Assembly (NCBI GenBank): GCA_938743325.2
Contig: OW568867.1
Span: forward strand, 620,001 to 684,000
Reading direction: 5' to 3'
Length of the DNA: 64,000 nt
Source of the DNA: Pycnococcus provasolii
Lineage: Eukaryota > Chlorophyta > Pseudoscourfieldiophyceae > Pseudoscourfieldiales > Pycnococcaceae
Made by a program: the position numbers and the translations under genes. A model generated the notes under the pieces. The model searched no databases. It was not told the DNA's origin and worked only from the letters and a program-made list of their open reading frames with translations. Of this stretch, positions 3,001 to 41,800 are shown one piece after another; position 1 is the first letter of the stretch; the number at the start of each line of letters is the position of its first letter.

Positions 3001-5991
3001 CATGTGCGGCTGAACAGCCTGTACATTCTTCGTTTGGGAAAGGATCTCGAGCAGCTCATCGTTTGACAGGAAGTAGAAGCGCGGGAACGCCATGCGCTTC
3101 GTCTCAAGGTAGTCTTCCAGGTTCTTCTGCACCTTCTCGAGCGTTTCGTTCGCCTTCTCGAAAATTTCGAACCATCCGGGCGTCGTTCCCGCTTGCAGCG
3201 CATTGTTGCGGTCACGCGTACGCCTCATGATGTCCTTGAATTGCTTGTCGACACTGAAGAAAGCCTTCGACTCATTCGGCAGCTGGCGCTGGATGTCTGG
3301 CGCACTAAAAATAGTTTCGAGGTACATCCAAGTGCGCTGGCACTCAAGCCATTCATCGAGCGTGTCGCTGAAGAGCTTGAGCTGCTTGTCCATCTTATCC
3401 ACCTCATTGCGAATGCCCGCCACGAAACGTGAAGCCGTGATGGTGGACATCGTCACCAACGAATCTTCCAAGGCGGTCATGACCTCATCAATGCCGCCGA
3501 GAATATACACGTCCTTCGCATCTTTGTACGGCAGCGCGACGAATTCGATGTTGGCCCACTTGGTTTGAACCTTCTGCAGCAATCCCTCGAGAGCAGCCTC
3601 CTGCGTTGCCTCCGTACTCACGGCAACGATGCGATCCTTGAAGTCTACCACCTTCATCTCGAGCAGCGCACCGACGGTGAACGTGTCCGACTCGAGGTCG
3701 AACTTCTTCCCCGTCTCCTCCTCCAGTTTTGTCCAGTGACGCTCGCGTATGTCGGTATTGCGCAGAGCCTGCAGCACGGGAAGCGTTTCCTTCATGGCCA
3801 CCACAGCCTCGCGCAGCTGCGGCACCTTCCTGTTCGGTGGCAACCCGCGCTCGAGCTTGAGGCATATCTTGTTGTATGCCATGATCTCCGCCTCGAGCGA
3901 GGCAAGGTCGATGTCGAAGAATTTCGACGCGCTCCACTGCTCCTCGAGATCGATCCAGTCGCGCTGGCCAGTCCAAAGGGTGTGCTTTAACGTCACCTCC
4001 TCGCTGCACTCGTCGAGATCCTCGAACGAAGTCTCGAACACCTTGAAGAGCCTCTGATACTTCTGAATGCGCTTTGCCTGCGCCTTCTGCTCCTCCACCT
4101 TCGACACGAGGCGGGTGGTGAGCTCAATGACCTCGCTCGATTTGGCAGACCCGTCGAGAATCATCTCGTGTCCTGCGAGCACGCGAATGTCCGCAACCTC
4201 CTTGCCGACACCCTCCACCTCTCGCTCGAGGTCCGAGCTGAACTTCATCTCACGCTCCTCGTGGCTGCCTTCCGCGAAGTCAAGCGAGCCCTTGTACGCA
4301 TTGAAGTCCGTCGGGAGCGTCTTGAACGCCGCGTGATCGATGTCCGGCACCTGAATGTGGTACTCTTCGATGAGCTCGTAGTACGCCGTGACCAGCATGA
4401 ATTCGTCATCAAAATCACTTCGCTTAGCGAGGCAAGACTCCATGAACTCGATGTACGCAACAAACTCTTCCACCGAGCAGGGTGACGAGGAGAGCTTCGC
4501 CGTCGCGTCGTGCACCTCGTTGATAAAGTTCTGGTACCGCTCGCTTGCCAGCTGTGGGAGCAGGTTGAAGATATTGTCCATGCACTGCTTCGGGAACGGC
4601 AGGAAGAGCGCACGCAGCGCCTTCGTGTTGATGGAAAGGATTCCCATGTTCGCACTCTCCACAAGGCTGTCAAGCTGCTTTGTCTGATCGATGTACAAGT
4701 CGAGATCCTCGCGAAATTCGTCCAACCCACGATCGCCTCGCTCCACCGATGCTCGCATCTCCGCGACGTCGAGCATGGAGTCAATACGGCAGAACTCGCG
4801 AGATTCGTTGAAGTAATCCTTGTAGTCTTCCGCCGCCTCGAAAGCGACGGAGATGCTTTCCTTGAGCAATGAAACGAGCTCGACGTGGCGTTCGGAGCTC
4901 ATGAGGTCGCTGAGGTCGCCGTCTGCCGCCTCGGCGTCCGTGACGCTCTCGACAAAGCCGCGGAGGTCCGGGTGCGCGATGAGGCGCTGCACGGACGACA
5001 TCGTCTGCAGATATATCCATCCACGGCACTCTCCACGCCGGCGTCGAATCCGACGACGTCCGGCGCGAATTCGAGCGTCAACATATCTTCGGTTAAGGTG
5101 ATGTCCACCTCGAATACCGGAGGTTTGTCGTCACCATGATGCTTGACCTGGTCCGCGTCCTCGCTGTCGGCAGGCACGACCATGTGGCTCGGTGGTAGGA
5201 TATTCATGTCGCGCTGGGTGATGGCAAGCATGTCGCCGACACTCTCCACCACGAGAATGTGCAGCGCGTCGGACACCATGTAGTCTGCAAGGCGGATGAA
5301 GTTGAGCAGGCGCCGTTGCTCCGAGCGCCTTGCCGCGGTGATTGCGTACGAGAACTTGGCTCCCTCGTCTTCATCGGCAAGTCCTGTCTGTCGCCTGCTG
5401 GCGCGCGAGGTCTTCATCATCGCCGCCATGCGATTACCGCCCTTTCGACCGGCGTTCAGCGCCTCTTCCTCGTGTTCGACGGACGTTCAGCCACGTTGTC
5501 CCACAAGGCGCTCCTCGAGCAACGCGAGCGCCGTCTCGCACGCCACCTTGACGGTATCTGCCGTTTCGGCGGAGAAGCTGACGAGATGCTCCGTCGCCTT
5601 GATCTTCTGCGCCTCTTGCGCCGCGTTGAACATCTCGAGCGTGTACAGCTGTCCCGACTGAACGTCGTGCAAGCGCATCGCCTCGAGCTCGTAGCACATG
5701 CCGCGTACGTGCAGCAGGGCGCTCTGGAACGTATCGGTGAGAAGGAAAAGCTTCTTCTGCAGCGCAGCACGACACAGCCGCGTCTTCTTGTGCCGCACAT
5801 GCCTCTTCCACGTGCTAAATCCCTTCCACTTGCGGTAGTGCCTGAATACGCCGAGCGTGGACACTTGGTTGAACAAGGTGGTACTCGCGCTCAAACTGGT
5901 CGAGCGGCGTGAAGTCCGCGCTGCCGTCGACGAAGTGAGTCACACCAGCGCTGCTCATGGTGTAGAAATCACGCGGGTTCACCTCAGCCAT
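1..5991 (-). pseudogene. axonemal (inner-arm type) dynein heavy chain, broken and partial
   Basis: The minus strand encodes a dynein heavy chain from the tail (motif TMSSAGVTHF near 5950) through the linker to AAA1 (P-loop GPAGTGKTET near 2275, CFDEFNR near 2120), AAA3 (VDDVNMP near 1960), AAA4 (GVGGSGKQS near 1110) and the start of the stalk (GFVKPPSLVQLTMEAVCTLLG, 63 to 1); it then leaves the window. Axonemal dyneins are flagellar motors. The reading frame is not continuous. There are frame changes near 5875 (after REYHL), 5015 (after VDGY), 1810 (after GGGR) and 1420 (after GYFT), and an in-frame TGA near 5488. At about 2005 the AAA1 segment ending PTFGVFI runs straight into AAA3, so the rest of AAA1, AAA2 and the start of AAA3 (several hundred residues) are absent. 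One frame of 1086 codons (1741-5001) is still open. Neighbouring long genes are intact, which argues against poor sequence quality, but an assembly error cannot be excluded. The inner-arm assignment is from motif resemblance only. Confidence 0.7.
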
Positions 5992-18102: not shown

Positions 18103-18817
18103 CTACGTAGTATTCTCAGCATTCTCATTCTCAGCATTCTCATTCTCAGCATTCAGCGGGCCGTCGCATGTCAACCATGTGTGCACCGCTGCGTTTAAAC
18201 GTTGAGGATGCGCACTCCCGTGGCATGTGTATACCACGGAACGCGGCTCGTCGTAACGTTCGACATGGACTTTGTGTGTCTTGGTTACGAGTTTCCGCCC
18301 GAGTGTGATCGTTTCGAGAGGGCAATCAAGACCAATCAACTAAACAGGGACGTGCCAATGCCGCTGGTATACTAGCATGCACGCGATTGCTCATTCAGTC
18401 AGTAACGGAGAAGGTTGTTTACATATCACTTACATGAAGGATGCACTTGCCGCACGTGTCACCACCGAGCATCATCCGCATGTGCCACCCCCGTCGCTCG
18501 GCTAGAGCTTTCGTGCGTGGCGTTGCGTATGTAGCCGGCGGTCCACGAAACGAAGTGAGAAACGCATAACCTACCCGAGCGCTCGGGAGCCGAGGCGACA
18601 TGCGATCAGCGGTCCCCTCCCGCCGCACTAATCTGCGCGCCTGCCATTCGGGGTTCGGGAATTCCCCTCCGAGGTCCGGGGCTTGGCATCCTGTGCTTTT
18701 GTCGCCGCACCTCCGGGGATTTTGAATCCTCTTTCGACCGTACTCTTCGGAAATCTGTCCGTTGTTATTTTCTTTCTTCGACTGTTTGAATTTTGAGTCA
18801 CCCGTTTGCAAGTCCAT
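18103..18817 (-). CDS. unrecognised 206-residue protein, two exons
   Basis: Exon 1 runs 18817-18434 and ends CTTCAT|GTAAGT. A 94-bp intron (18433-18340) ends CTGTTTAG, and exon 2 runs 18339-18103. The splice keeps the frame (KCILH joined to LIGLDCPLETITLG). The protein starts MDLQTGDSKFKQSKKE, is basic in the middle and has cysteines in DTCGKCILH, GLDCPL, YTCHG and TWLTCDG, which might bind zinc. It ends in an NAENENAENENAEN repeat made by short DNA repeats at about 18115-18155. I do not recognise the family. Its ATG is only 28 bp from the ATG of the divergent HtrL-type gene, so the two must share a promoter region or overlap in transcript. Confidence 0.5.
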
Positions 18818-18845: not shown

Positions 18846-20870
18846 ATGGCGCCTTCGCTCCCACCTCGTCGTCAGTCCTACCACCATCATCATCGTCATC
18901 ATCCTGGTGGCGGCGGCAGCTCTGTCTCTCGTCGTGGTGGTGCTTCAGCTCAATCTCATCGTTTATGCGTGCTTCGGCTTGTGCGATGGTACTTTCTCAA
19001 AGATGCCTTGCTCATTGCTGCGCTTGGTTTATTCTTGGTGACAATCATACAACAAACCTCAATCATTGCGACCAACAATAAAGACGAACGCGCGCAATCT
19101 GCACCAACGACAAACTGGCAGTCACGACGTCACGTTCGAAGACTGCGTGCTCCCGTTTTCCGACAAAATAGCACGACACGCCGTCGCGAACAAGATGGTG
19201 GGCTCGCACGCACGCACGCCAACGACAACAGTCACAACAGTGTGCCACTCAACCAACGGGATGCGACCTTGTCTCCAGATGCAATTTTTACGGCTCAATT
19301 CCCGAAAGATACGGACGACGCATCGACGAAGCATCCGAGCACGATCGTCACTGCTTACTTTGAATTCCCGTCCAAACATTCGTCCAAGGAGTATGATGCG
19401 TGGATGGCCAACATGTTGTCGTTGCAAGACGCCATGGTCATCTACACGACAGCGGACATGGTTCCAAAGATCGAACGACTTCGTGCCCACGCCATTGATC
19501 ACACAGTCGTTGTAGCAACGACGTTGGAGGACACACGAGTGGCAAAACGTTACGACGCTGCGTTTTGGAAGGCGCAACATCAGATGGATATTGAGAGACG
19601 GACTCATAAAGACGTGCGTCTGTATTGGGTTTGGAATTCAAAAAATGAATTTTTGAAACGTACGGTCGATTCGAATCCGTTTCAATCAACCTTTTTTGCG
19701 TGGGTTGATATTGGCTACTTTCGGACCAACACGTACAATGGCCAACACATGCTTCGAACCATCCCAGCAACGCTTCGAACGGATCAAGTGTTGATGCTGG
19801 ACGTTACCTCACTCGACAAGTCGTTCCTTCGGAAAACTGGGGGGCGGAAATCCGTGGGTGGCGGATTCATAGGTGGTTACGCGAACGGCATTGAGCTCTG
19901 GTATACCAAATATTATGCCATGTTGGACGCGCATAAACAAGAATTCATCGGCAAAGAACAGCCATGGATGGTGAAGACGTGCGACGCCAACCCAGGATTG
20001 TGTCAATTGGTCGTACCGGATCGAAAGCACGGGAATCCGTGGTTCTACATGGCGCCGTACATGATGGGGAGCACGAACAATGCCTCTGCCGGGCGGCGGC
20101 GGCGGAGGAGGAGACGGCGGCGGCGGCGGTGGCGGCGGGCCGCTGTTGCGTATGGGTTGACTAACGACTGCGATTTCAATCTGACACAGCAAGCGTTTCG
20201 CTCGGCACGCAATACAGATTACTCACTAGGTGATACGGTCAAGTTCTACAAATCTGGTAGTGGAGACGAAAGAAGATATTTGTCTCCTAATCGTCGAAAA
20301 AAAGTTTGTCGTCAATTCAACAGCAGCATCGCTTGCTCGTACATACGCTCGTATCGAGAGAACGGCCAACATCCTAACATCGATGTGCTGAATGAGGTTA
20401 CTCCGATGGTTGAGCCACGACCGGAAGCGGTGATGCACTTGCGGCTCGGTGACGTGGCACGATTTGGCGACTGCTGGTCACATACTTGCGTGACTAAGGG
20501 AAGACTATACCAGTTCACGAAAGATGATTACGACACCATCCGCGATGAACTAAAAAACCTTACCACAATTACCATTGTGGCGAACCCGACTCATAGAGGA
20601 GGAGGCAACAAGACGACGATGTCAGAGATTTACCTCAACAACGTAATGGGATACTTGAGAAGCCTCGGTGTGTGTCCAGTGTACCGCGGCATCAGGGATG
20701 CGGACGACGATTTCGCCTTTGCCTCCAGTGCCAAGGTGCTTGTGCGAGGAGGAGGGGGTTACGCTACATTCATGGCAGATCTTGTGAGAAAGCGAGGTGG
20801 CAAGGTGCTCATGCCAAATATGACCGCCAAAATGTGGCCTCAAGGACCCGTCAAAACTCTTCAAGGCTGA
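18846..20870 (+). CDS. HtrL/YibB-type putative glycosyltransferase with second GT-like domain
   Basis: A 674-residue type II membrane protein: His/Gly-rich cytosolic N-terminus, one signal anchor (about 43-65, DALLIAALGLFLVTIIQQ), then a lumenal region. Residues about 150-405 match the HtrL_YibB family (TIVTAYFEF near the start, WNSKNEF, SNPFQSTFFAWVDIGYF). The C-terminal part (about 520-674) contains HLRLGDVARFGDCWSHTC and VRGGGGYATFMADL, which resembles the nucleotide-sugar region of alpha-1,2-fucosyltransferase-like enzymes. A poly-Arg/Trp linker (about 415-435) encoded by CGG repeats separates them. Golgi location and sugar transfer are inferred from topology and family. The start ATG has good context (TCCATGG). 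Codons from SNPFQSTF to the MAPYMM motif are copied almost perfectly at 23703-24104. The 3' flank also recurs twice. Confidence 0.7.
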   Translation: MAPSLPPRRQSYHHHHRHHPGGGGSSVSRRGGASAQSHRLCVLRLVRWYFLKDALLIAALGLFLVTIIQQTSIIATNNKDERAQSAPTTNWQSRRHVRRLRAPVFRQNSTTRRREQDGGLARTHANDNSHNSVPLNQRDATLSPDAIFTAQFPKDTDDASTKHPSTIVTAYFEFPSKHSSKEYDAWMANMLSLQDAMVIYTTADMVPKIERLRAHAIDHTVVVATTLEDTRVAKRYDAAFWKAQHQMDIERRTHKDVRLYWVWNSKNEFLKRTVDSNPFQSTFFAWVDIGYFRTNTYNGQHMLRTIPATLRTDQVLMLDVTSLDKSFLRKTGGRKSVGGGFIGGYANGIELWYTKYYAMLDAHKQEFIGKEQPWMVKTCDANPGLCQLVVPDRKHGNPWFYMAPYMMGSTNNASAGRRRRRRRRRRRRWRRAAVAYGLTNDCDFNLTQQAFRSARNTDYSLGDTVKFYKSGSGDERRYLSPNRRKKVCRQFNSSIACSYIRSYRENGQHPNIDVLNEVTPMVEPRPEAVMHLRLGDVARFGDCWSHTCVTKGRLYQFTKDDYDTIRDELKNLTTITIVANPTHRGGGNKTTMSEIYLNNVMGYLRSLGVCPVYRGIRDADDDFAFASSAKVLVRGGGGYATFMADLVRKRGGKVLMPNMTAKMWPQGPVKTLQG

Positions 20871-21055
20871 CTGACGACGAGCAGTCATCATTTTTGACGC
20901 ACTAGTGTTGCGATCCATCCAGTCACCACTTGCTTGAAGTTACCACACACAACATCAGTTTGTTTGTGTTTGGTTTTGTGTGTAATCTTCAATCAACAAC
21001 ATCATATAATTTCAACTACAACAGTCGAATCATCAAAAACATCAAAATCACCTTT
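20862..21055. repeat. 3' flank repeat, copy A
   Basis: The stretch from GACTGACGACGAGCAGTC to AACATCAAAATCACC follows the HtrL-type stop codon. It recurs nearly unchanged at 24170-24352 (copy B) and in diverged form at 38475-38820 (copy C). It carries an AACACAACATCAG/TTTGTTTGTG tract but no gene. Confidence 0.9.
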
Positions 21056-21410
21056 CCCTCCCGCCAAAGATTTCGATTTCCGATTTGTTCACCCCGAACC
21101 CAACCCCGGTCGAAGTTTTCGAATAACGCCGCATTCGTGCGTTACACGTTACACATCGTCGCATAACGCACGAATATAACAAACGCGCGCACACAACTGT
21201 TGCTAGTGCTCTTCCATTATATGTGGGAAACTGCAACTTTAGAAGTTCCAGTGGGGGGCGCAACCTTGCCTTGATAATGCTAACCTTGATAATGTCCCTT
21301 TGGAAACCCTCCGTTGTAAACAGAGGCAACCCCCCCAAAAAAGGCAAAAAAAGGCTCAATGAGGAGAACCTCGACCAAACTCAGACCGACATTGGTCCCC
21401 CGCCCATAGG
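21056..21410. other. spacer, nothing recognised
   Basis: This stretch follows the shared 3' flank and precedes the 60-bp tandem repeats. No convincing gene or site is seen. Confidence 0.4.
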
Positions 21411-21574
21411 AAATCAAGGGAGGGTTGCGAAGAGGTCTCAGAGCTCTTCCCAACCTTGATAGCCGGGAAGGGAAATCAAGGGAGGGTTGCGAAGAGGTCT
21501 CAGAGCTCCCCTACCTTGATAGCCGGGAAGGGAAATCAAGGGAGGGTTGCGAAGAGGTCTCAGAGCTCCCCCCT
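21411..21574. repeat. 60-62-bp tandem repeat, three copies
   Basis: Units begin AAATCAAGGGAGGGTTGCGA at 21411, 21473 and 21533. The spacer part of each of the first two units contains ACCTTGATAGCCGGGAAGGG. The array lies upstream of the GATATC-rich gene and may be a subterminal repeat of a mobile unit. Confidence 0.9.
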
Positions 21575-21629
21575 CCCCCCCAAGAGTCGCATTGTACCAA
21601 GGGGACACAGTTTGACACATGGGTTTTAC

Positions 21630-21735
21630 GCGTTGATATCATAGAATTGGACTTGATATCAAGGATCAAAACCTTGATATCAAGGATCAAAACCTTGATA
21701 TCAAGGATCAGAACCATGATATCAAGGACCCTATT
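21630..21735. repeat. tandem CCTTGATATCAAGG palindromes
   Basis: Five GATATC cores in about 100 bp. Several are expanded to the perfect 14-bp palindrome CCTTGATATCAAGG with ATCAAAA spacers, at a period of about 22 bp. A pyrimidine-rich stretch and CCCCACAG follow, so this is probably the 3' end of an intron upstream of the first exon seen. Confidence 0.85.
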
Positions 21736-21788
21736 GGCTCTACCCTATTGGCCTCTTTCTTGGGTCTTTCATTCATTCCCACCCCACA

Positions 21789-24161
21789 GTTAATGTTCAC
21801 CACAGACGCCCGCTTTGTCGGAAACAGAGTGCACAAAAGGTGCATGAGCGGGTATTCAGCTCTCGCCTCCGCGCGGGACAATCTGCGCAAGGCGGCGCCT
21901 AAGGAGTGGAATAACTCGGAGAAAGGTACGTGCCTTGATATCTGCCTTCTTTGCCTTGATTCTGCCTTCTTTGCCTTGATATCTTTCTTTATTCCTTGAT
22001 ATCAGCCTTGATATCTGCCTTCTTTCGCATCTAACATTGATAGCCATTAGATGCCTTGAAAGGCATGCCTGCGAACGCAGGTGGAACTACCCCACACAAC
22101 GAGTTCAAGGCTACCATCCTTCAGCGTTCCAAGGTGGCTGAGGGGTGGTTTAAAAAGTTGGAGCCGGGTGACGCAACACCTCCTTCGCACATCTTGGAGC
22201 AGGTGTATGCTCGGAAGCTATGGAAACCACCCGAGGTGGACAAGAGTTTAACCCTAACGTGCATCGACGACGTCAAAAACTTTGAAATTTTTAAAACGCG
22301 AGAAGGCCGCAAGCTCCTCACGGCCTTCAACGTGGATCATGTCGCGGAAAATGTGTGAGAAAATGTGTGAGGTGTGGGAGGAGATAGGGAATAAAGTAAC
22401 TAAGATAAGAACTTCGGTGCTACCTTGATACCTCCCTTGATATCATCCTTGATAATACATAAGTAAAAATAAACCCTGTCAAAACAAGGTTCAAATAACC
22501 ATGATATCAGACACGATATCAGACTTCAAAAAAGTTTTGGGCAAACATGCCTCTGAGTGGTCGAATTGCACTTTGAGGCTTGTGTTCGCCACGGCGCTCA
22601 TTATTTCAAGCTTCTTCCCGACTTTAGGAAGTGCTTCAGAGGACCCGCCTGATGCTGGTTTTGTGTCGCGGTCTTTCAGGTGCGACCGTCGCAATGCTGC
22701 TCGCGTGCGATTTTTGATCACAAAGGTGAGAACAATGATATGTGATGAATTACCTTGATATCGTTTTCGATATCTGCCGTATATCCTTGATATCAAGGAA
22801 TATACCCTTGATATCAATTGTTCTGACCCTAACCCAAACCATGCTCGCAGATTCTCGGGGAAGACGCCGCGAGGGGCTTCGATCGCTTCACGCGTACGGT
22901 GGCAGGGCGCAAGGTTCTCGACGAGCTTCGGAACACGCAAGTACACCTTCGACACCACGTTGTGGAGGCAGCGCAAGAAGGCGGCGTGAACAACTGGCAA
23001 CCAATGCTCGGGGAGGTGTACTTGGAATCGCATCATATGCGATGCGCAAGGTGTGATGGGGCTCTGCTAAGGAAAAAGGCGTCCCGGGTCGTCGTCGTGA
23101 CGGGCTGCGTGAAGAGATCGGTACGCTTCTTTATCCATTTGATATCAACCCTGATATCAAGGTTTTGTTCCTTGATATCGTCGGATATCGCTCTGGTATC
23201 TTACCTGATATCTTACTGGTACAAAAAACTTTCAAACAGGGATTGCACTCAAGGAAAGTGTGCCAAGCTTGCACAACCGTGCACTTCTACTCGTACTACG
23301 TGCATGACAAGAACAGGTACTACCACAACCTAGCACACCCAGACACCACGGAGATGGCGAAGCGATACATTTCGCCCAACGTGAAGCTCTTCATCGACAT
23401 CGAAGATGTTGCTATGATTGAAAAATCGATTTACTTCAATCGAAGCTCATTCAAGGCGATAAGTCTGGACGTGAACGAGCGTTGTAGAGAGAAGGTGCGA
23501 ACAAGCGTATCACATTGACTATGATATCAAGAAGCATTCAAAGATATCAATGCAGATATCAAGTATCGAGTCCTTGATATCAAACCTAACATCCAATCTC
23601 AAACGAATTGTATAGGTGTATGACGAGGATGGCAGGAACGCTATGCTTGCATGGATTATGTATTGCGCTCTCACGGCTCAGGGACCGGGGGACGACACGA
23701 TCATCGATTCGAATCCGTTTCAATCAACCTTTTTTGCGTGGGTTGATATTGGCTACTTTCGGACCAACACGTACAATGGCCAACACATGCTTCGAACCAT
23801 CCCAGCAACGCTTCGAACGGATCAAGTGTTGATGCTGGACGTTACCTCACTCGACAAGTCTTTCCTTCGGAAAACTGGGGGGCGGAAATCCGTGGGTGGC
23901 GGATTCATAGGTGGTTACGCGAACGGCATTGAGCTCTGGTATACCAAATATTATGCCATGTTGGACGCGCATAAACAAGAATTCATCGGCAAAGAACAGC
24001 CATGGATGGTGAAGACGTGCGACGCCAACCCAGGATTGTGTCAATTGGTCGTACCGGATCGAAAGCACGGGAATCCGTGGTTCTACATGGCGCCGTACAT
24101 GATGCCAAATATGACCGCCAAAATGTGGCCTCAAGGACCCGTCAAAACTCTTCCTGGATGA
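21789..24161 (+). CDS. multi-exon chimera: KDZ-associated cysteine-cluster-like protein joined to HtrL copy
   Basis: Exons that splice in frame: 21789-21926 (ends GAGAAAG|GTACGT), about 22049-22350, about 22516-22723 (ends AAG|GTGAGA), 22852-23119 (ends TCG|GTACGC), 23240-23493 (ends AAG|GTGCGA), 23617-24161. The exon 2/3 junction is unclear, and the 5' end is probably missing because a splice acceptor precedes the first exon. The middle exons encode MRCARCDGALL, then a VVVVTGC strand, KVCQACTTVHFYSYY, NRYYHNL and DEDGRNAMLAWIMYCAL. This order resembles the CxC5 cysteine cluster found with KDZ (Kyakuja-Dileera-Zisupton) DNA transposases. From codon 23703 the last exon becomes a copy of the HtrL-type gene that lacks 747 bp (249 codons) of it and ends at TGA 24161. 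Putative introns hold about 20 GATATC sites; exons hold none. The family call is by eye. Confidence 0.5.
23703..24152 (+). repeat. recent partial copy of the HtrL-type gene
   Basis: Matches 19667-20066 almost base for base; I noticed one difference, in the codon after DK (TCG to TCT). It then jumps to the equivalent of 20814 onward. The junction shares the trinucleotide ATG, as expected of a microhomology deletion. The removed 747 bp is a multiple of three and includes the CGG-repeat linker and the second GT-like domain. Confidence 0.9.
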
Positions 24162-24162
24162 C

Positions 24163-24363
24163 CCGCTGACTGACGACGAGCAGTCATCATTTTTGACGCA
24201 CTAGTGTTGCGATCCATCCAGTCACCACTTGCTTGAAGTTACCACACACAACATCAGTTTGTTTGTGTTTGGTTTTGTGTGTAATCTTCAATCAACAACT
24301 TGGATCTAATTTCAACTACAGCAGTCGAATCATCAAAAACATCAAAATCACCTCCTCTTCTTT
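24163..24363. repeat. 3' flank repeat, copy B
   Basis: Same block as at 20862-21055. Here it is preceded by GATGACCCGCTGACTGACGA, which is shared with copy C at 38470, and it continues into the aconitase-derived segment. Confidence 0.9.
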
Positions 24364-24559
24364 GTTTTCATTTGTCTTTGCAGCACCCTAGCTAGACACC
24401 GCACCTTAAGCAGTACCTTCTTCTTCTTCTTAAACAGTTAGATCCGTCACAACCGTCTGCAAAATGCCTCCTCCATTCCGGAAGTACCCACCAACCTCAG
24501 GCATGGTGTCGATGCGAAGCTTCGTGTCGAACGTCGTGTTCACGCCGTCAGGCGCCGCC
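24364..24559 (-). pseudogene. duplicated 3' end of the aconitase gene
   Basis: Matches 38822-39018, that is, the aconitase 3' flank and its last 40 or so codons (24430-24559 on the minus strand). There are base changes and two 3-base insertions. Homology stops at GGCGCCGCCT, after which unrelated AT-rich sequence begins. It cannot encode aconitase and is a truncated gene copy. Confidence 0.85.
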
Positions 24560-24682
24560 TAATTATATATACATCATATACATTAATAATAGAAGGATTG
24601 TGGGCTGAAGACGCGTGGACGAAAGCGACGAAGTAAGTAAAAATACATTCCATTACTGAGTTCTATGCCGCGCGGAACCACC

Positions 24683-26056
24683 TTAGCTAGCACCGGAGAA
24701 CATCGCCTGGAACAAGTACGCCTGGCTCAACAGCATCGACATCTCGTTCTCCTTCCAGTCTTGCGTCGGCAAGTTTTGGAGGAACATCACCATGTCCTGG
24801 AACTCCATCTCAAGCACCTGCTTGCTAAAGTTGAGAAGCAGCGCGGCGCAGCAGTAGCTCAAGAACGATGGAAGGCCGTGCGACCCTTCCGCTAAAAACG
24901 TGTCGAACAGACGGAACGCGCAAATCGGTGGAACCTCGCGTAGTAGCAGGCAGTTGGCCCATCGGAACGCAAACTGAAGGAACTCGAGCCCGTTGTCCTC
25001 GATGTGGTGGCAACAAGGTGCGTCGACACGAAAGCACAGCTCGCGCACGCGATAAACGAGGCGCTGGATTCCCGGCTGCGCCGCGGTGTAGTGGTCTTGC
25101 ACACCGTCGAGCAAGGCGCACAGGCTCCAGTACGCGTCCGCCTCCGCCGTCAGCAGCGCCTCCTCGCTGAGCGACGCGAGCGTCGCCTGAGCCTGCTCGA
25201 GTGACCCTGCGTACCAGTCCCTCTGGTGCGGCACGCCGCGCGCCTCTTGCGCAGCCGCCACCTGCTCGCCGTAGAAGATGAGCATGAATGGCGTGGCAAC
25301 GTCGTTGAGGCCCTGCACGTACCCGCTCGCCGGGTTGCGCGCCGCGCGTATGTAAAGCATTCTCCTCAGCGCGAGCTGAACGGTTTCCTCGTCGCGGAAC
25401 AGCGGGCACTCCGGGGCGGTGCGCGGTGCGTCGATGAGAACCTGGTGGAAGGTTTTCCTCTCCTCCTCGGTTCTGTCCTCGTCGCTGATCTGCCACAGCT
25501 CGCTGACGTAGTCGCGGTAGTCCTGCCTCTTTCTCTCAAGCGCGGCATCTCGTCGAACCGCCTTGGCAGGTGCATATCCTGTCATGAGCCTCCAGCACGT
25601 CGGCCTGAGGCTGTGTGGCACGCCGTTCCAGCTGAGCGCCTTGAGCGCGTTCATGTCGACGACGTCTGTGTTGAGCAGTTTCTCAAACTTCGCTAACCGC
25701 GACTTCTCAAAGTCCGTCATTTGATTCCTGGCGGCGCCTTCACCTGTGGCGCCATCCACGCCTCCTGCTTGTGTTAGCTGATCGCTTCCCAAGCCCGTAG
25801 AGTCGGACGGCTCGGCGGACCCAGCGCCACCCCCAAAGGCCCTTCTCGACTCTGAAGGAGATACGTGAGATGATTCGCCACCCAGGCTAGCGTCTGACGT
25901 GAGCCCGGCGTGGGCCCCCTGAGCTTCTTCCATTGCGTCGGAAGAAGGCACCCCCCCCAAGGCTGGCGACGGCGATGCCGCCACCGCCGCCGAGCCTGCT
26001 ACTAACCTGCCACTAGCCACGACACGAGGCATGTTACGCGTTGCACCGCTGTGCAT
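24683..26056 (-). CDS. TBC-domain Rab GTPase-activating protein, TBC1D22/Gyp1 type
   Basis: A 457-residue protein. The first 110 residues are a low-complexity Ser/Gly/Ala leader. KFEKLLNTDVVDMNALKALS at about 120, then WNGVPHSLRP and TCWRLMTGY, mark the start of a TBC domain of the TBC1D22/Gyp1 group. The dual-finger residues are present: Arg in VLIDAPRTAP (about 211) and Gln in GYVQGLND (about 245). The domain ends with LFDTFLAEG and FLSYCCAALL. Such proteins speed GTP hydrolysis by Rab/Ypt GTPases in Golgi and endosomal traffic. The C-terminus stops soon after the domain. The ATG at 26056 gives a long leader; ATG 26032 is an alternative. The Rab partner cannot be told. Confidence 0.85.
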   Translation of the reverse strand: MHSGATRNMPRVVASGRLVAGSAAVAASPSPALGGVPSSDAMEEAQGAHAGLTSDASLGGESSHVSPSESRRAFGGGAGSAEPSDSTGLGSDQLTQAGGVDGATGEGAARNQMTDFEKSRLAKFEKLLNTDVVDMNALKALSWNGVPHSLRPTCWRLMTGYAPAKAVRRDAALERKRQDYRDYVSELWQISDEDRTEEERKTFHQVLIDAPRTAPECPLFRDEETVQLALRRMLYIRAARNPASGYVQGLNDVATPFMLIFYGEQVAAAQEARGVPHQRDWYAGSLEQAQATLASLSEEALLTAEADAYWSLCALLDGVQDHYTAAQPGIQRLVYRVRELCFRVDAPCCHHIEDNGLEFLQFAFRWANCLLLREVPPICAFRLFDTFLAEGSHGLPSFLSYCCAALLLNFSKQVLEMEFQDMVMFLQNLPTQDWKENEMSMLLSQAYLFQAMFSGAS

Positions 26057-27705
26057 AGTAGTCTATCGGAAATGGAAAAACGAGCGAGGAAGAATGATTC
26101 GCGCAGGATTTCCCGGGGGGGCCTCCGGAGCTCCGGGCAGAGGGAAAGCTTTAACAGGATCCAGAACCCCGAGGGAGGGCGAGGGAGGAGAAAAAAAAAG
26201 AAATACCCGGGCTGCTACGGTATTTCCCACCTCCCTAATGTAGTAGGGGTTATGGGGATACGTCGTGGGTGGTCGTCCCTGGGCCGACCACTGGCCCCTG
26301 GGCCCCTGGCCCTGGGGCTGGGGGCCCCTTCTTTTTGGCCTTTTCGGGATCCCGGTCGGGAATTCGGGAAACGAAGGATCCTTCCACCACGTACACCGTA
26401 CACGCGCACATTCATTTAGAGGCGCACTCAAGCTCCTCGCTCAAATGGACAAGCTCACATCACGGCGGCAGATTGTCGAGCGTGCGAAGAAGGTCGTCAC
26501 GCAAAGCGAGAGGCGGGAGTGTCCAAGCCACCCTCAAGACGGACAGCAGAGTGAGAACGCGCCGCCGCGTGCGTACATTTGGGCTCTTGCGCTGAGGCGT
26601 CGCGTGTGTGCTGCATGGCTTTCTCGATGGTGGAGATGGGCCAAATCCAGATGCGCTGTCGATGCTTGTGCTGGAACGCACACCACGCGAATATGGCGGA
26701 GTTCGCCTGCGTTGGATGGCCCGACAAAGGTGACATGCTAGCCAACGTTGCACCGCCTGGCTTCGAGAAGCGAGGGTGGGTGCATTCTGAGTGGGGTCAG
26801 GATTTCGCTGCCACGAAAGCCTTCACGGCGTCTTCGTCAAACCGCTCGCGATGACGCGATGACGCGCCGGGAGAGTGAGAGCGTTTCTGAGTCTGAGAGC
26901 GAATACGAGAGCGATGCCGACGCGGCGGCGGTGGATAAATTGATGACGGCGAGACTTTGTTTAAGGAACAAATAATAAGTCTACTAGGTTGTCTCTATGA
27001 AGGTGACAACTTCGCACGCTTCACAGATGACCAGCGCGGCGCGCGCTGATGCTGCGGGTGCTGCTTCTAATCATGAGCCTAGCGCTAATTGTTGATCATA
27101 TCATTCCGAATCGAGAGAACAATCATGTGGATAATAATTTGCAATTTGTGACGAATGTTCTTCAAAACGTTGTGACTTGTGAATGAAGCACGCGCATTTC
27201 AACACTGCAGCTCAATGCCAATGGCGGAGTGCCTCGAGCGAGCGTTTGCATCCGCTCATCGACTTGGTGTCGCCATTGACGGGTCGTGGCTCAAAACAGC
27301 GTGTATCCGATGTATCGCGTGCTGACATACATAGGGTTCGGGTTCGGGTTCGGGTTCGGGTCCGGGCCCCTCCAGGCAGCCAGGTTCAGGTTCGGGCGCG
27401 CTCGAACGCCGCCGGGCCCCACCCAAACTTGGGTCCCACTTGGTTTCCCGTTTCCCGGGGTCCAGCCGGGTCCGCTTCATTTCCCACAACCAACGAACGA
27501 AGCAGGCCGGACCGGTCGGCTTCCTTGTGTGTACACCATTCTGACATTCTCTACAGACCGTGTGGTGTTTTTGTGTTTTTGTGTTTTGTAGTCCTTGGAA
27601 CATCAATATTGCTCTGATATATCTCGGTACTGTATCTATCGCTCTCTTACACCTGCAGGGTATCTCATCTCATCAACTGAGCACGTACCCATACATACGG
27701 ATCAG
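26057..27705. other. 1.6-kb spacer with GC-rich, G-rich and short ORF-like stretches
   Basis: 26270-26330 is a GGCCCC/CTGGGG-rich segment. 26455-26975 contains short plus-strand frames, for example one ending ESESVSESESEYESDAD and one with MLANVAPPGFEKRGWVH. None forms a gene I recognise; they may be a decayed gene. 27333-27366 is an array of TTCGGG, a variant of the TTAGGG motif seen elsewhere. The right end must hold the promoter of the SWR1-type gene. Confidence 0.4.
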
Positions 27706-38470: not shown

Positions 38471-38822
38471 GACCCGCTGACTGACGAGCGAGCGAGCAGT
38501 CAGTCAGCATTTTTGACTTACCAGTGTTGCGATTCCATCCCTAATCCACTACTGCAGCACAAGAATCACTCAATAACAAATGCTAGCTAGCAGAGATAGA
38601 CTTTGAGTTTAAGTTTGGTAACAATACATTTTTGAGGAAAAACTTGGTTGTACTAACACCATAGAGTCAAGAAAAAGAAAAGAGTCACCACTTGCTTGAA
38701 GAGTTACCACACACACAACATCAGTTTGTTTGTGTTTGGTTTTGTGTGTAATCTTCAATCAACAAACATGATCTAAATTTCAACTACAGCAGTCGAATCA
38801 TCAAAAACATCAAAATCACCTC
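38471..38822. repeat. 3' flank repeat, copy C, with a 150-bp insertion
   Basis: The spacer between the broken secreted-protein gene and aconitase. It matches the flanks at 20862 and 24163 but is split by about 150 bp of unrelated sequence (about 38541-38688, containing GCTAGCTAGC). Since this copy is attached to the full aconitase gene, it is probably the source of the 24163-24559 block. Confidence 0.85.
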
Positions 38823-38896
38823 CTCTTTGTTTTCACTTGTCTTCTTTGCACCCTAGCTAGACCCGCACCTTAAGCAGTACCTTCTTCTTCTTCTTC

Positions 38897-41800
38897 TTAA
38901 ACAGTCAGATCCCTCACAACCGTCTGCAAAATGCCTCCATTCCGGAAGTACCCAACCTCAGGCATGGTGTCGATGCGAAGCTTCGTGTCGAACGTCGTGT
39001 TCACGCCGTCAGGCGCCGCCTCGGCGGTCACCTTGATCGTCATGCCAGGCTTGATTTCGTCAAACGTGTCGGGAAGGTGCACGGTGTACGTCTCAAGTCC
39101 CGTGAGCTTGTATGTCTCGGCTGATTCGCCGTCCTTGAACTGCAGCGGGAGAACGCCCATGCCAATCAAGTTGGATCGGTGAATGCGCTCGAACGTCGAC
39201 GCGATGGCAGCCTTGATGCCAAGCAGGTAAGGTCCCTTGGCTGCCCAGTCGCGAGACGAGCCTGTTCCGTACTCCTTGCCCGCAATCACAACCATGCCCA
39301 CCTTGTCCTCGTTCATGTAGCGCTGCGACACGTTGTACACATAGTCCACCGTCATCGAGGGAACGTGCAGCGTCTTCGGGGCTTCTGGCGCACCCTTCGT
39401 GACCTGCAGCTGATCCGCGCACTTTGCCACCACCATTTCGTTTTTGAGCAGCTCGTTCACCATGCGCACGTTGGCGAATGTACCTCGCGCCATGACCTCG
39501 TCGTGGCCGCGGCGCGAGCCGTAGCTGTTGAAATCCTTGCGCTCGACGCCGTGATCCATCAGGTACTTAGCAGCTGGGCTCTTCAGCGCGATGTTGCCCG
39601 CAGGGCTGATGTGATCTGTCGTCACGCTGTCTCCGAGCAGCAGCAGGCAGCGAGCCTTCTGGATCTTCTTCGACTCGCTGAGCACCGGGCTCACATCCGC
39701 GGTCATGCTCTTGAAGTACGGAGGCTTGTTGATGTATGTCGACTCTGGATTCCACTCGAACAGCTCCTTGCCTTCTCCTGGTACCTCGAGCGTCGACCAT
39801 GCATCCGATCCTGTGTGATCGTCGTATGTGTGAGTGTGTGTGTGCGTGTGTGTGTGTTTGCTGTGAGAAACGTAAACGGAGTGCATCGTAGTCTCCGTCT
39901 CTGGCCGTCGCTGCCGCCTCCACTATCGCCGCCGCCGCGCAACGCGCGCCACCTTGCGCTACGCCACACGCAAACACAAAAACAAGAAAAGCAAAGTGCC
40001 ATCCCGCAGGCGAACAAATGCAAAATCTAAAAACAGGAAGGCAAATGGCTCGTATCCCTACCTTTTGACTGCTGTTTCTTGCCGGTAAGCAGACGCTTGA
40101 GCGCGCGCACGGGACCCATAACAATGCGATCTAGAATATTACCGCGCTGGTTGAAAATGCGCTCGTAGGTCGCGCGGTACTTCGCGGGCGTGTTCACCTT
40201 GGCGACCGTCTGCTTGATGAGCTTGTTGTCCGGCCAAATGTCGCGCAGGAACACGGGTGACCCGTCCGTCGCTGTGCCAATCGGTTCCTTCTCGAAGTCG
40301 ATGCCCACGCGTCCCGCGAGCGCGTACGCGACGACGAGGGGAGGTGACGCGAGGTAGTTGCCGCGCGTGAGCGGGTGAACACGCCCCTCGAAGTTGCGGT
40401 TGCCGCTGAGCACGCTGCACACGACGAGGTCCTTCGCCTGCACCGCGTCGGAAACTTCGGGCTCGATGTCGCCCGAGTTGCCAATGCAAGTCGTGCACCC
40501 GTATCCGACGACGCCGAATCCAAGCGACTCGAGCGACTTGAGCAGGTTAGCATCCGTCAGGTACTCCGTTACGACGTTCGATCCTGGCGCAAGGCTCGTC
40601 TTGACGTGTGGCTGCACCTTAAGGCCCTTTTCAGCCGCCGCCTTGGCGAGCAGGCCAGCCGCCACCATCACCTCGGGGTTGGACGTGTTGGTGCAGCTCG
40701 TGATGGCGGCAATGACGATCGACCCGTGCTTGAGCGTGCACTTCTCGCCACCCATCGTCACGTCGATCTGATCGTCGAGACGCTCGGGCTTCAGGCCGAA
40801 TCCCTTGAAACCCACGGGAGAGCTGAGGCACTGCTTCCAGTCGGAGGGCATCTGGTGCAGCGCAACGCGGTCGTGCGGGCGCTTCGGGCCGCTCAGGCAA
40901 GGCACGACGGTCGACAGGTCGAGGCTGATGGTGTCCTCGTAGTGCGGCGCCTTGGCGTCCGTCTCGGGAACGAGGAAAAAGCCATTCTCCTTGGCGTACG
41001 AGCGGCACCGCTCGACGTGCTCTTCGCTGCGTCCCGTCTGCGTGAGGTACTCGAGCGTGACGTCGTCGAGGGGGAAGAATCCCATCGTCGCGCCGTACTC
41101 GGGCGCCATGTTAGCCACCGTCGCGCGGTCGGCGAGCGTGAGGTGCGAAACGCCTGGTCCGTAGAACTCGACGAACTTGCCCACCACCTTCTTCTTGCGC
41201 AGCATCTCCACGACCGTCAGCACGAGGTCGGTGGCAGTGACGCCCACTCCCAGCTCTCCGCTGAGGTGGAATCCCACGACGAGCGGCAGCACCATGGCGA
41301 TGGGCTGCCCGAGCATCGCCGCCTCCGCCTCGATGCCTCCGACGCCCCACCCGGCGACGCCGAGTCCGTCGATCATCGTCGTGTGGCTGTCGGTGCCCAC
41401 GCAGCTGTCGGGGTACACGAGAGGCTCCTCCTTGTCTCCGTTCGCCTCCTCGGCGGTGTTGACGACGACGCGCGCAAGGTACTCGAGGTTGACCTGGTGC
41501 ACGATACCGGCACCTGGCGGCACGACGCGGAAGTTCTGGAACGCCTTGCTTCCCCACTTGATGAACTGGAAGCGCTCCTTGTTGCGCTGCATCTCGAGCG
41601 CCTTGTTCTTCTCCACAGCCTTCGGGTCGTTGTAGACATCCACCTGAACGCTGTGGTCGACGACGAGGTCGACGGGAACGAGCGGGTTCACCTTCTGCGG
41701 GTTTCCGCCCAGAGCCGACACGGCATCGCGCATTGCCGCGAGGTCGACGACGGCGGGAACGCCCGTGAAGTCCTGAAGCACGACACGTGCGGGTATGAAC

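Follow-up and report, generated by a model that had tools for sequence, protein, structure and literature searches.

The window, a 64,000-nucleotide stretch of the genome of the green alga Pycnococcus provasolii (C7:620001-684000; the genome comprises 32.3 Mb in 46 contigs), contains the left part of a DNA transposon, as identified by comparison with its other copies. Its transposase-like gene is interrupted by candidate introns carrying arrays of the palindrome GATATC, and such arrays are also present at both non-coding extremities of the family. We assign a probability of about 0.6 to the reading as a whole, in which the left part of a KDZ-like transposon lies in an HtrL_YibB-like gene and GATATC is a site for a protein of the element that has extended into the introns. 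The arrangement is real and unusual within a transposon remnant; its mechanism we infer.

A transposon left end fused to part of an HtrL_YibB-like gene

Over 21215-21727, the window shares 98% identity with an end of a 1,187-bp unit on contig C18. This unit begins ATTATATGTGGGAAACTG and finishes CAGTTTCCCACATATACTC, and is flanked on both sides by GGTTGGGC, an 8-bp target-site duplication seen in this one copy, the only complete one. The 16-mer TATATGTGGGAAACTG within the left terminal inverted repeat of the window (ATTATATGTGGGAAACTGCAACTTTAGA; Table 1) has four exact matches in the genome: the left end in the window, the right end of a copy on contig C9 and both ends of the C18 unit. Three more places match with one or two mismatches, and a reversed control pattern gives one match per strand. 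Between the C9 right end and C18, identity is 99.6% across 731 bp. With up to 4 mismatches allowed, neither a right end in window positions 20001-27000 nor a left end in the C9 locus was found. Neither the window protein nor the C9 protein is matched in the C18 copy. The end homologies and the shared inverted repeat identify C18 as a complete copy of one transposon family, and C7 and C9 as left and right parts, respectively. These are the only three sizeable copies, too few for conservation to be traced across many. Contig C26 carries a short fragment related to the element, and patches of 59-139 bp without ends occur on C1, C4 (two), C27 and C29, that on C1 (692874-693012, 139 bp) being 93% identical to the exon 5 stretch. 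The patches on C29 (258230-258288), C1, C4 and C27 appear as lone exon or intron pieces of the transposase gene in foreign surroundings, and are filler-like.

Table 1. Features of the transposon-bearing locus (positions in the window)
Feature	Position	Strand	Remarks
Uninterrupted HtrL_YibB-like gene	18846..20870	+	PF09612, E 3.7e-10
Host flank, probably 5' region of HtrL_YibB-like gene family	21100..21214	+	Recurs elsewhere in the genome
Left terminal inverted repeat	21216..21243	+	Carries the recurrent 16-mer
60-bp tandem repeat in left end, 2.7 copies	21409..21571	+	Tandem Repeats Finder; present in the C18 copy too
Subterminal GATATC array	21635..21727	+	5 sites, spacing 20, 21, 21, 21
Exon 1 of transposase-like gene	21793..21925	+	Open frame, donor AAAG/GTACGT
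Candidate intron 1	21926..22080	+	4 GATATC, spacing 41, 20, 12
Exon 2	22081..22354	+	In frame with exon 1
Candidate intron 2	22355..22522	+	3 GATATC; 3' end uncertain (22463 or 22522)
Exon 3	22523..22725	+	Open frame; may begin at 22464
Candidate intron 3	22726..22850	+	4 GATATC, spacing 12, 20, 21
Exon 4	22851..23120	+	First part of CxC5 match
Candidate intron 4	23121..23239	+	5 GATATC, spacing 12, 21, 10, 23; splits CxC5 match
Exon 5	23240..23494	+	Second part of CxC5 match
Candidate intron 5	23495..23615	+	4 GATATC, spacing 20, 12, 21
Exon 6, last transposase-like part	23616..23703	+	Open frame
3' part of HtrL_YibB-like gene	23704..24163	+	In-frame continuation of exon 6

Outside the element, the 21100-21214 flank is 94-97% identical to five places in the genome (C40, C20 and three on C5), with partial matches on C10 and C8 at 84-91%. 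The five relatives continue past the insertion point whereas the window does not, and one of them leads on into DNA that shares 99% identity with 19157-19310, a stretch within the uninterrupted HtrL_YibB-like gene. At the other side, 23704-24104 is 99.75% identical to 19666-20066 and the match restarts 745 bp on, at 20811; the uninterrupted gene is the source or a sister of the fused piece. The element would have inserted in the 5' region of (upstream of) an HtrL_YibB-like gene, and later loss of the right part of the transposon together with the front of that gene would have joined 5' transposase exons to the HtrL_YibB-like 3' part. This order of events is likely. A reading of the locus as an ordinary host gene is unsupported: a transposase-like gene contributes its 5' part, to which a piece of a different gene is joined. 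Beyond the fusion, some 340 bp (24220-24560) share 92% identity with 38683-39021, which covers the aconitase 3' end and adjoining flank; this duplicate makes the locus a mosaic of local duplications. The aconitase reading frames themselves are on the minus strand and span 38897-41733, rather than sitting near 18340 as first reported, and the gap between them at 39887-40026, presumably an intron, is devoid of GATATC. The aconitase shows 87% identity to a Pycnococcus provasolii protein and, across 96% of the query, 100% identity to a metagenome protein.

Exons, candidate introns and identity of the transposase-like gene

For exon 1, the start was placed at the first ATG that follows a stop in the same frame. 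Introns 1, 3, 4 and 5, as chosen, are joined in one open frame. The sequence-only reading of five exons in frame stands for these introns, but in our reading the exons number six and the last enters the HtrL_YibB-like piece. Intron 2 was enumerated over donors 22250-22371 and acceptors 22400-22579. Acceptor 22522 (GATATCAG) gives an open frame solely with GC donors; donor 22355 is open with acceptor 22463 and not with 22522. By eye, we favour the pairing of donor 22355 and acceptor 22463. At the intron 2 donor (22347-22371), 12 bp are duplicated in tandem, with a single unit in a related C4 fragment (by eye). The open frame, the splice borders and a protein-family match that continues across intron 4 together suggest that the gene is spliced. 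In C9, a gene fragment allows an in-frame reading with three exons and two introns; the first of these exons may have another origin.

The match in question is to CxC5 (PF18718), a KDZ-associated cysteine cluster by its Pfam description. The window protein matches it with E-values of 7.5e-5 (whole) and 9.2e-6 (domain), at a domain score of 26.3 bits that falls just under the curated cut-off of 26.9, and exon 5 by itself scores 23.1 bits in a six-frame search of the genome. Contig C15 has a slight further match to CxC5 (E 0.127, 17 bits; read by translation only), and the 10-kb locus there has 6 GATATC with zero triplets or spaced pairs. The C9 protein fragment has no confident Pfam family, and neither gene-bearing copy (C7 or C9) combines the CxC5 part with the right end. 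No protein relatives were found at E 0.001 among 5,511 candidates of about 405-1290 residues, at E 1 among 14 of that size in a second search, or in the viral contigs.

Other features agree with the KDZ kind. Inverted repeats are present at the ends, 16 bases being identical among the four ends that the three copies retain, and the 8-bp target-site duplication occurs in C18, a single copy. The KDZ catalytic domain (PF18758) has no match in the genome or in 14 control genomes, a search that had no positive control, and for this reason we call membership of the KDZ (Kyakuja-Dileera-Zisupton) kind probable.

GATATC arrays fill candidate introns and non-coding ends

The window contains 32 GATATC, against a mean of 7.45 and a maximum of 13 in 100 shuffles. 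As first noted, about 25 of them crowd into some 2 kb (25 of 32 at 21635-23581) and the rest of the window has few, 7 in the 61,511 bp outside 21215-23703. In ten fetched loci, including an overlapping pair and the one bearing the C26 fragment, the background is 18 per 92,000 bp. Across the genome, the three transposon copies account for 30 of 33 GATATC triplets; for pairs, the share is 33 of 36 where the spacer is 14-15 bases and 7 of 10 where it is 6 bases. Reversed control patterns on the forward strand yield 0, 1 and 1, respectively. Chance as the source of the cluster is ruled out by the window and genome-wide counts. The 14-mer palindrome CCTTGATATCAAGG is scarcer than the 'many' full palindromes originally described: the window has 3 perfect instances and 8 with at most two mismatches, and the 13 perfect instances in the genome are distributed over C7 (3), C9 (5), C18 (4) and C26 (1).

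Within the genes, the motif is concentrated in the candidate introns. Those of C7 and C9 together contain 28 GATATC in 951 bp and the exons 0 in 1,694 bp (Fisher 2.8e-13); with the alternative intron 2, the figures are 26 in 892 bp for introns and 2 in 1,753 bp for exons (Fisher 7.3e-11). Each of the seven candidate introns, five in the window and two in C9, has at least one site under either choice of intron 2. That nearly all window sites are intronic applies to 20 of the 25 (18 of 25 if intron 2 ends at 22463), with five lying upstream of exon 1; similarly, the exons are free of the motif if intron 2 ends at 22522, and gain two sites (22503 and 22515) if it ends at 22463. Confinement to introns does not survive the wider comparison. 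The same arrays occur in the non-coding ends of the element (5 GATATC in 577 bp in C7; 20 in 1,174 bp in C9) and the C18 copy has 18 in 1,187 bp.

This distribution bears on whether the palindromes act in RNA, pairing within the pre-mRNA to aid splicing or to join splice sites. Four of the five window introns have folding z-scores below -1.9 against shuffles (-3.1, -2.0, -6.1 and -4.3; the fifth, -1.2; introns 1 and 2 were folded as the stretches 21926-22075 and 22375-22522), but palindromes fold in this manner by themselves. Moreover, the five window introns hold 22 palindromic hexamers, 20 of them GATATC and 2 of other sequence, where pairing alone would admit others; this argues that a fixed sequence is kept rather than pairing as such. 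The non-coding ends and the C18 copy also carry the motif at high density. A function as self-pairing splice helpers, one of three proposed at the outset, is accordingly very improbable.

The near-restriction of the arrays to one family also bears on a role for a host regulator, either a transcription factor or a DNA-modifying enzyme, the sites for which would have been acquired by the element for expression or used by the host for silencing. A palindromic core repeated at regular intervals would suit many proteins that bind DNA as dimers, and four contigs of a viral collection carry CTTGATATCAAG at 21-bp spacing, indicating that such arrays arise in unrelated settings. A host regulator should, however, have clustered sites elsewhere in the genome, and only 3 of 33 triplets fall outside the three copies; we consider this explanation distinctly unlikely. 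One outside triplet, at C27:280178-280225, includes a 12-bp pair and has flanks like those of the intron arrays, with no recognised copy there. The four CTTGATATCAAG contigs, from IMG/VR (L057, at 4983-5030, L058, L059 and L060), are taken as unrelated to the element; L057 is phage-like by eye.

Discrete spacing and intact cores

The distances between neighbouring sites are not evenly distributed. Among 21 intron gaps in C7 and C9, 7 are of 12 bp and 10 of 20-21 bp, the others being 10, 23, 41 and 64 bp. Random placement gives means of 0.8 and 1.0 for the two classes and none of 20,000 trials reached either count, although these simulations make the case look too strong, since the arrays share some ancestry and their sites and spacings are not independent. 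The best-fitting period is 9.75 for the 20 gaps of at most 45 bp and 10.0 once those of the ends are added (38 gaps in total), and 10.5 also scores high; with a best period of 9.75-10 and a gap of 12 that is not an exact turn, an exact helical period is unsupported. Beyond the core, CCTT before or AAGG after GATATC accompanies 16 of the 26 intron sites inspected.

The cores are better preserved than what lies between them. Non-coding DNA of C7 and C9 (2,702 bp) has 53 perfect cores and 13 with one mismatch, where shuffled spacers lead one to expect 9.5 (sd 2.9). The seven 6-base spacers, in contrast, have a mean identity of 35% (range 0-100%, two being identical), and the seven 15-base intron spacers, with their CCTT/AAGG flanks included, one of 51%. 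Cores that stay intact while their spacers diverge point to selection on the sequence.

These observations weigh on selfish copying, by which a palindromic unit spread among ends and introns, or the introns themselves arose from inserted arrays in the manner of introners, with no binding function. Some arrays are indeed alike beyond the core (intron 1 of C7 with intron 1 of C9; the left subterminal array with both intron 2 and a right array of C9), the copies are parts of a mobile element, and the available text of PMC9860276 describes algal introners with signs of DNA transposons. Neutral copies would nevertheless decay, and one-mismatch cores are near chance though the spacers have diverged. 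Target-site-like repeats were not seen by eye at the borders of the five window introns, and clustered GATATC is nearly absent elsewhere, with 30 of 33 triplets in this family. Copying, which the sequence-only reading had also proposed, may thus explain resemblances between particular arrays, but we judge it unlikely as a full account and favour binding.

Comparison with known transposons and introners

Zisupton and other KDZ elements of fish, nematodes, fungi and green algae resemble the window family, as far as the available texts describe them, in the 8-bp duplication, the inverted repeats and a multi-exon gene. Zisupton is described with an 8-bp target-site duplication and terminal inverted repeats in the accessible part of PMC12730594, and with multi-exon genes in that of PMC9297572, where the Zisupton of Pristionchus has no detected target duplication; Zisupton and Kyakuja elements are found in Chlamydomonas and its relatives according to the portion available of PMC8226300. 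The cysteine cluster may be a further likeness, its match here falling just under the cut-off. The catalytic domain of KDZ elements was not found in the window family by a search that had no positive control.

The hAT element Hermes shares with the window family the many short repeats inward of its ends. Its zinc-finger BED domain binds subterminal repeats, some short ones of which form a palindrome bound by two domains (PMC10368747, available text), and hAT elements usually make 8-bp duplications (PMC12730594, available text). The repeats described there lie in the ends of the element rather than in introns, and the transposase is of a different family. The Drosophila P element is similar in its 8-bp duplication, internal transposase sites and intron-containing gene, the splicing of which sets activity (PMC7776569, in the text available). 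It differs, in that same text, in having single short sites near each end and in a splicing control exerted by host RNA-binding proteins and piRNA.

Introners offer a parallel in which algal introns are linked to DNA transposons (PMC9860276, available text), but the window introns belong to a gene of the transposon itself. Introners place similar introns in many genes; judged by the motif, no such spread was seen here, clustered GATATC being nearly confined to the three copies. Border repeats, another such feature, were not apparent by eye at the five window introns, those of C9 having provisional borders and not being counted. The literature searched, outside which lie the founding Zisupton/KDZ papers, contained no account of binding-site arrays in transposase introns, which is weak evidence of absence.

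A proposed role for the arrays in protein binding

Of the functions first suggested for the palindromes, we favour protein binding on grounds of the discrete spacing, the intact cores between diverged spacers and the occurrence of the same sites subterminally. GATATC would be the core of a symmetrical site read on double-stranded DNA by a protein that the element encodes. The reader would probably be a transposase dimer, given that the arrays are nearly restricted to the family and lie near its ends, as in Hermes. Spacings of 12 or 20-21 bp approximate one or two turns of the helix, such that bound proteins could line up along the DNA. The sites fill the subterminal regions, a trait shared with other DNA transposons, and extend into the candidate introns, the stretches of the gene that are free of coding constraint, and binding along the entire element may help to assemble the transposition complex or damp transcription when the protein is plentiful.

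A stronger version of this proposal, possible but on the doubtful side, is that the transposase binds its own introns and coats the element, the arrays both assembling the transposition complex and throttling transcription or splicing as its level rises.

Introns of transposons are usually seen as passive. Here, the sites that mark the ends of the element fill every candidate intron, which suggests that introns can be kept as non-coding room for protein-binding arrays. The family provides a simple, testable case of possible self-regulation in a little-studied class of transposon in a green alga, and the GATATC array motif can be used for finding living relatives of the element.
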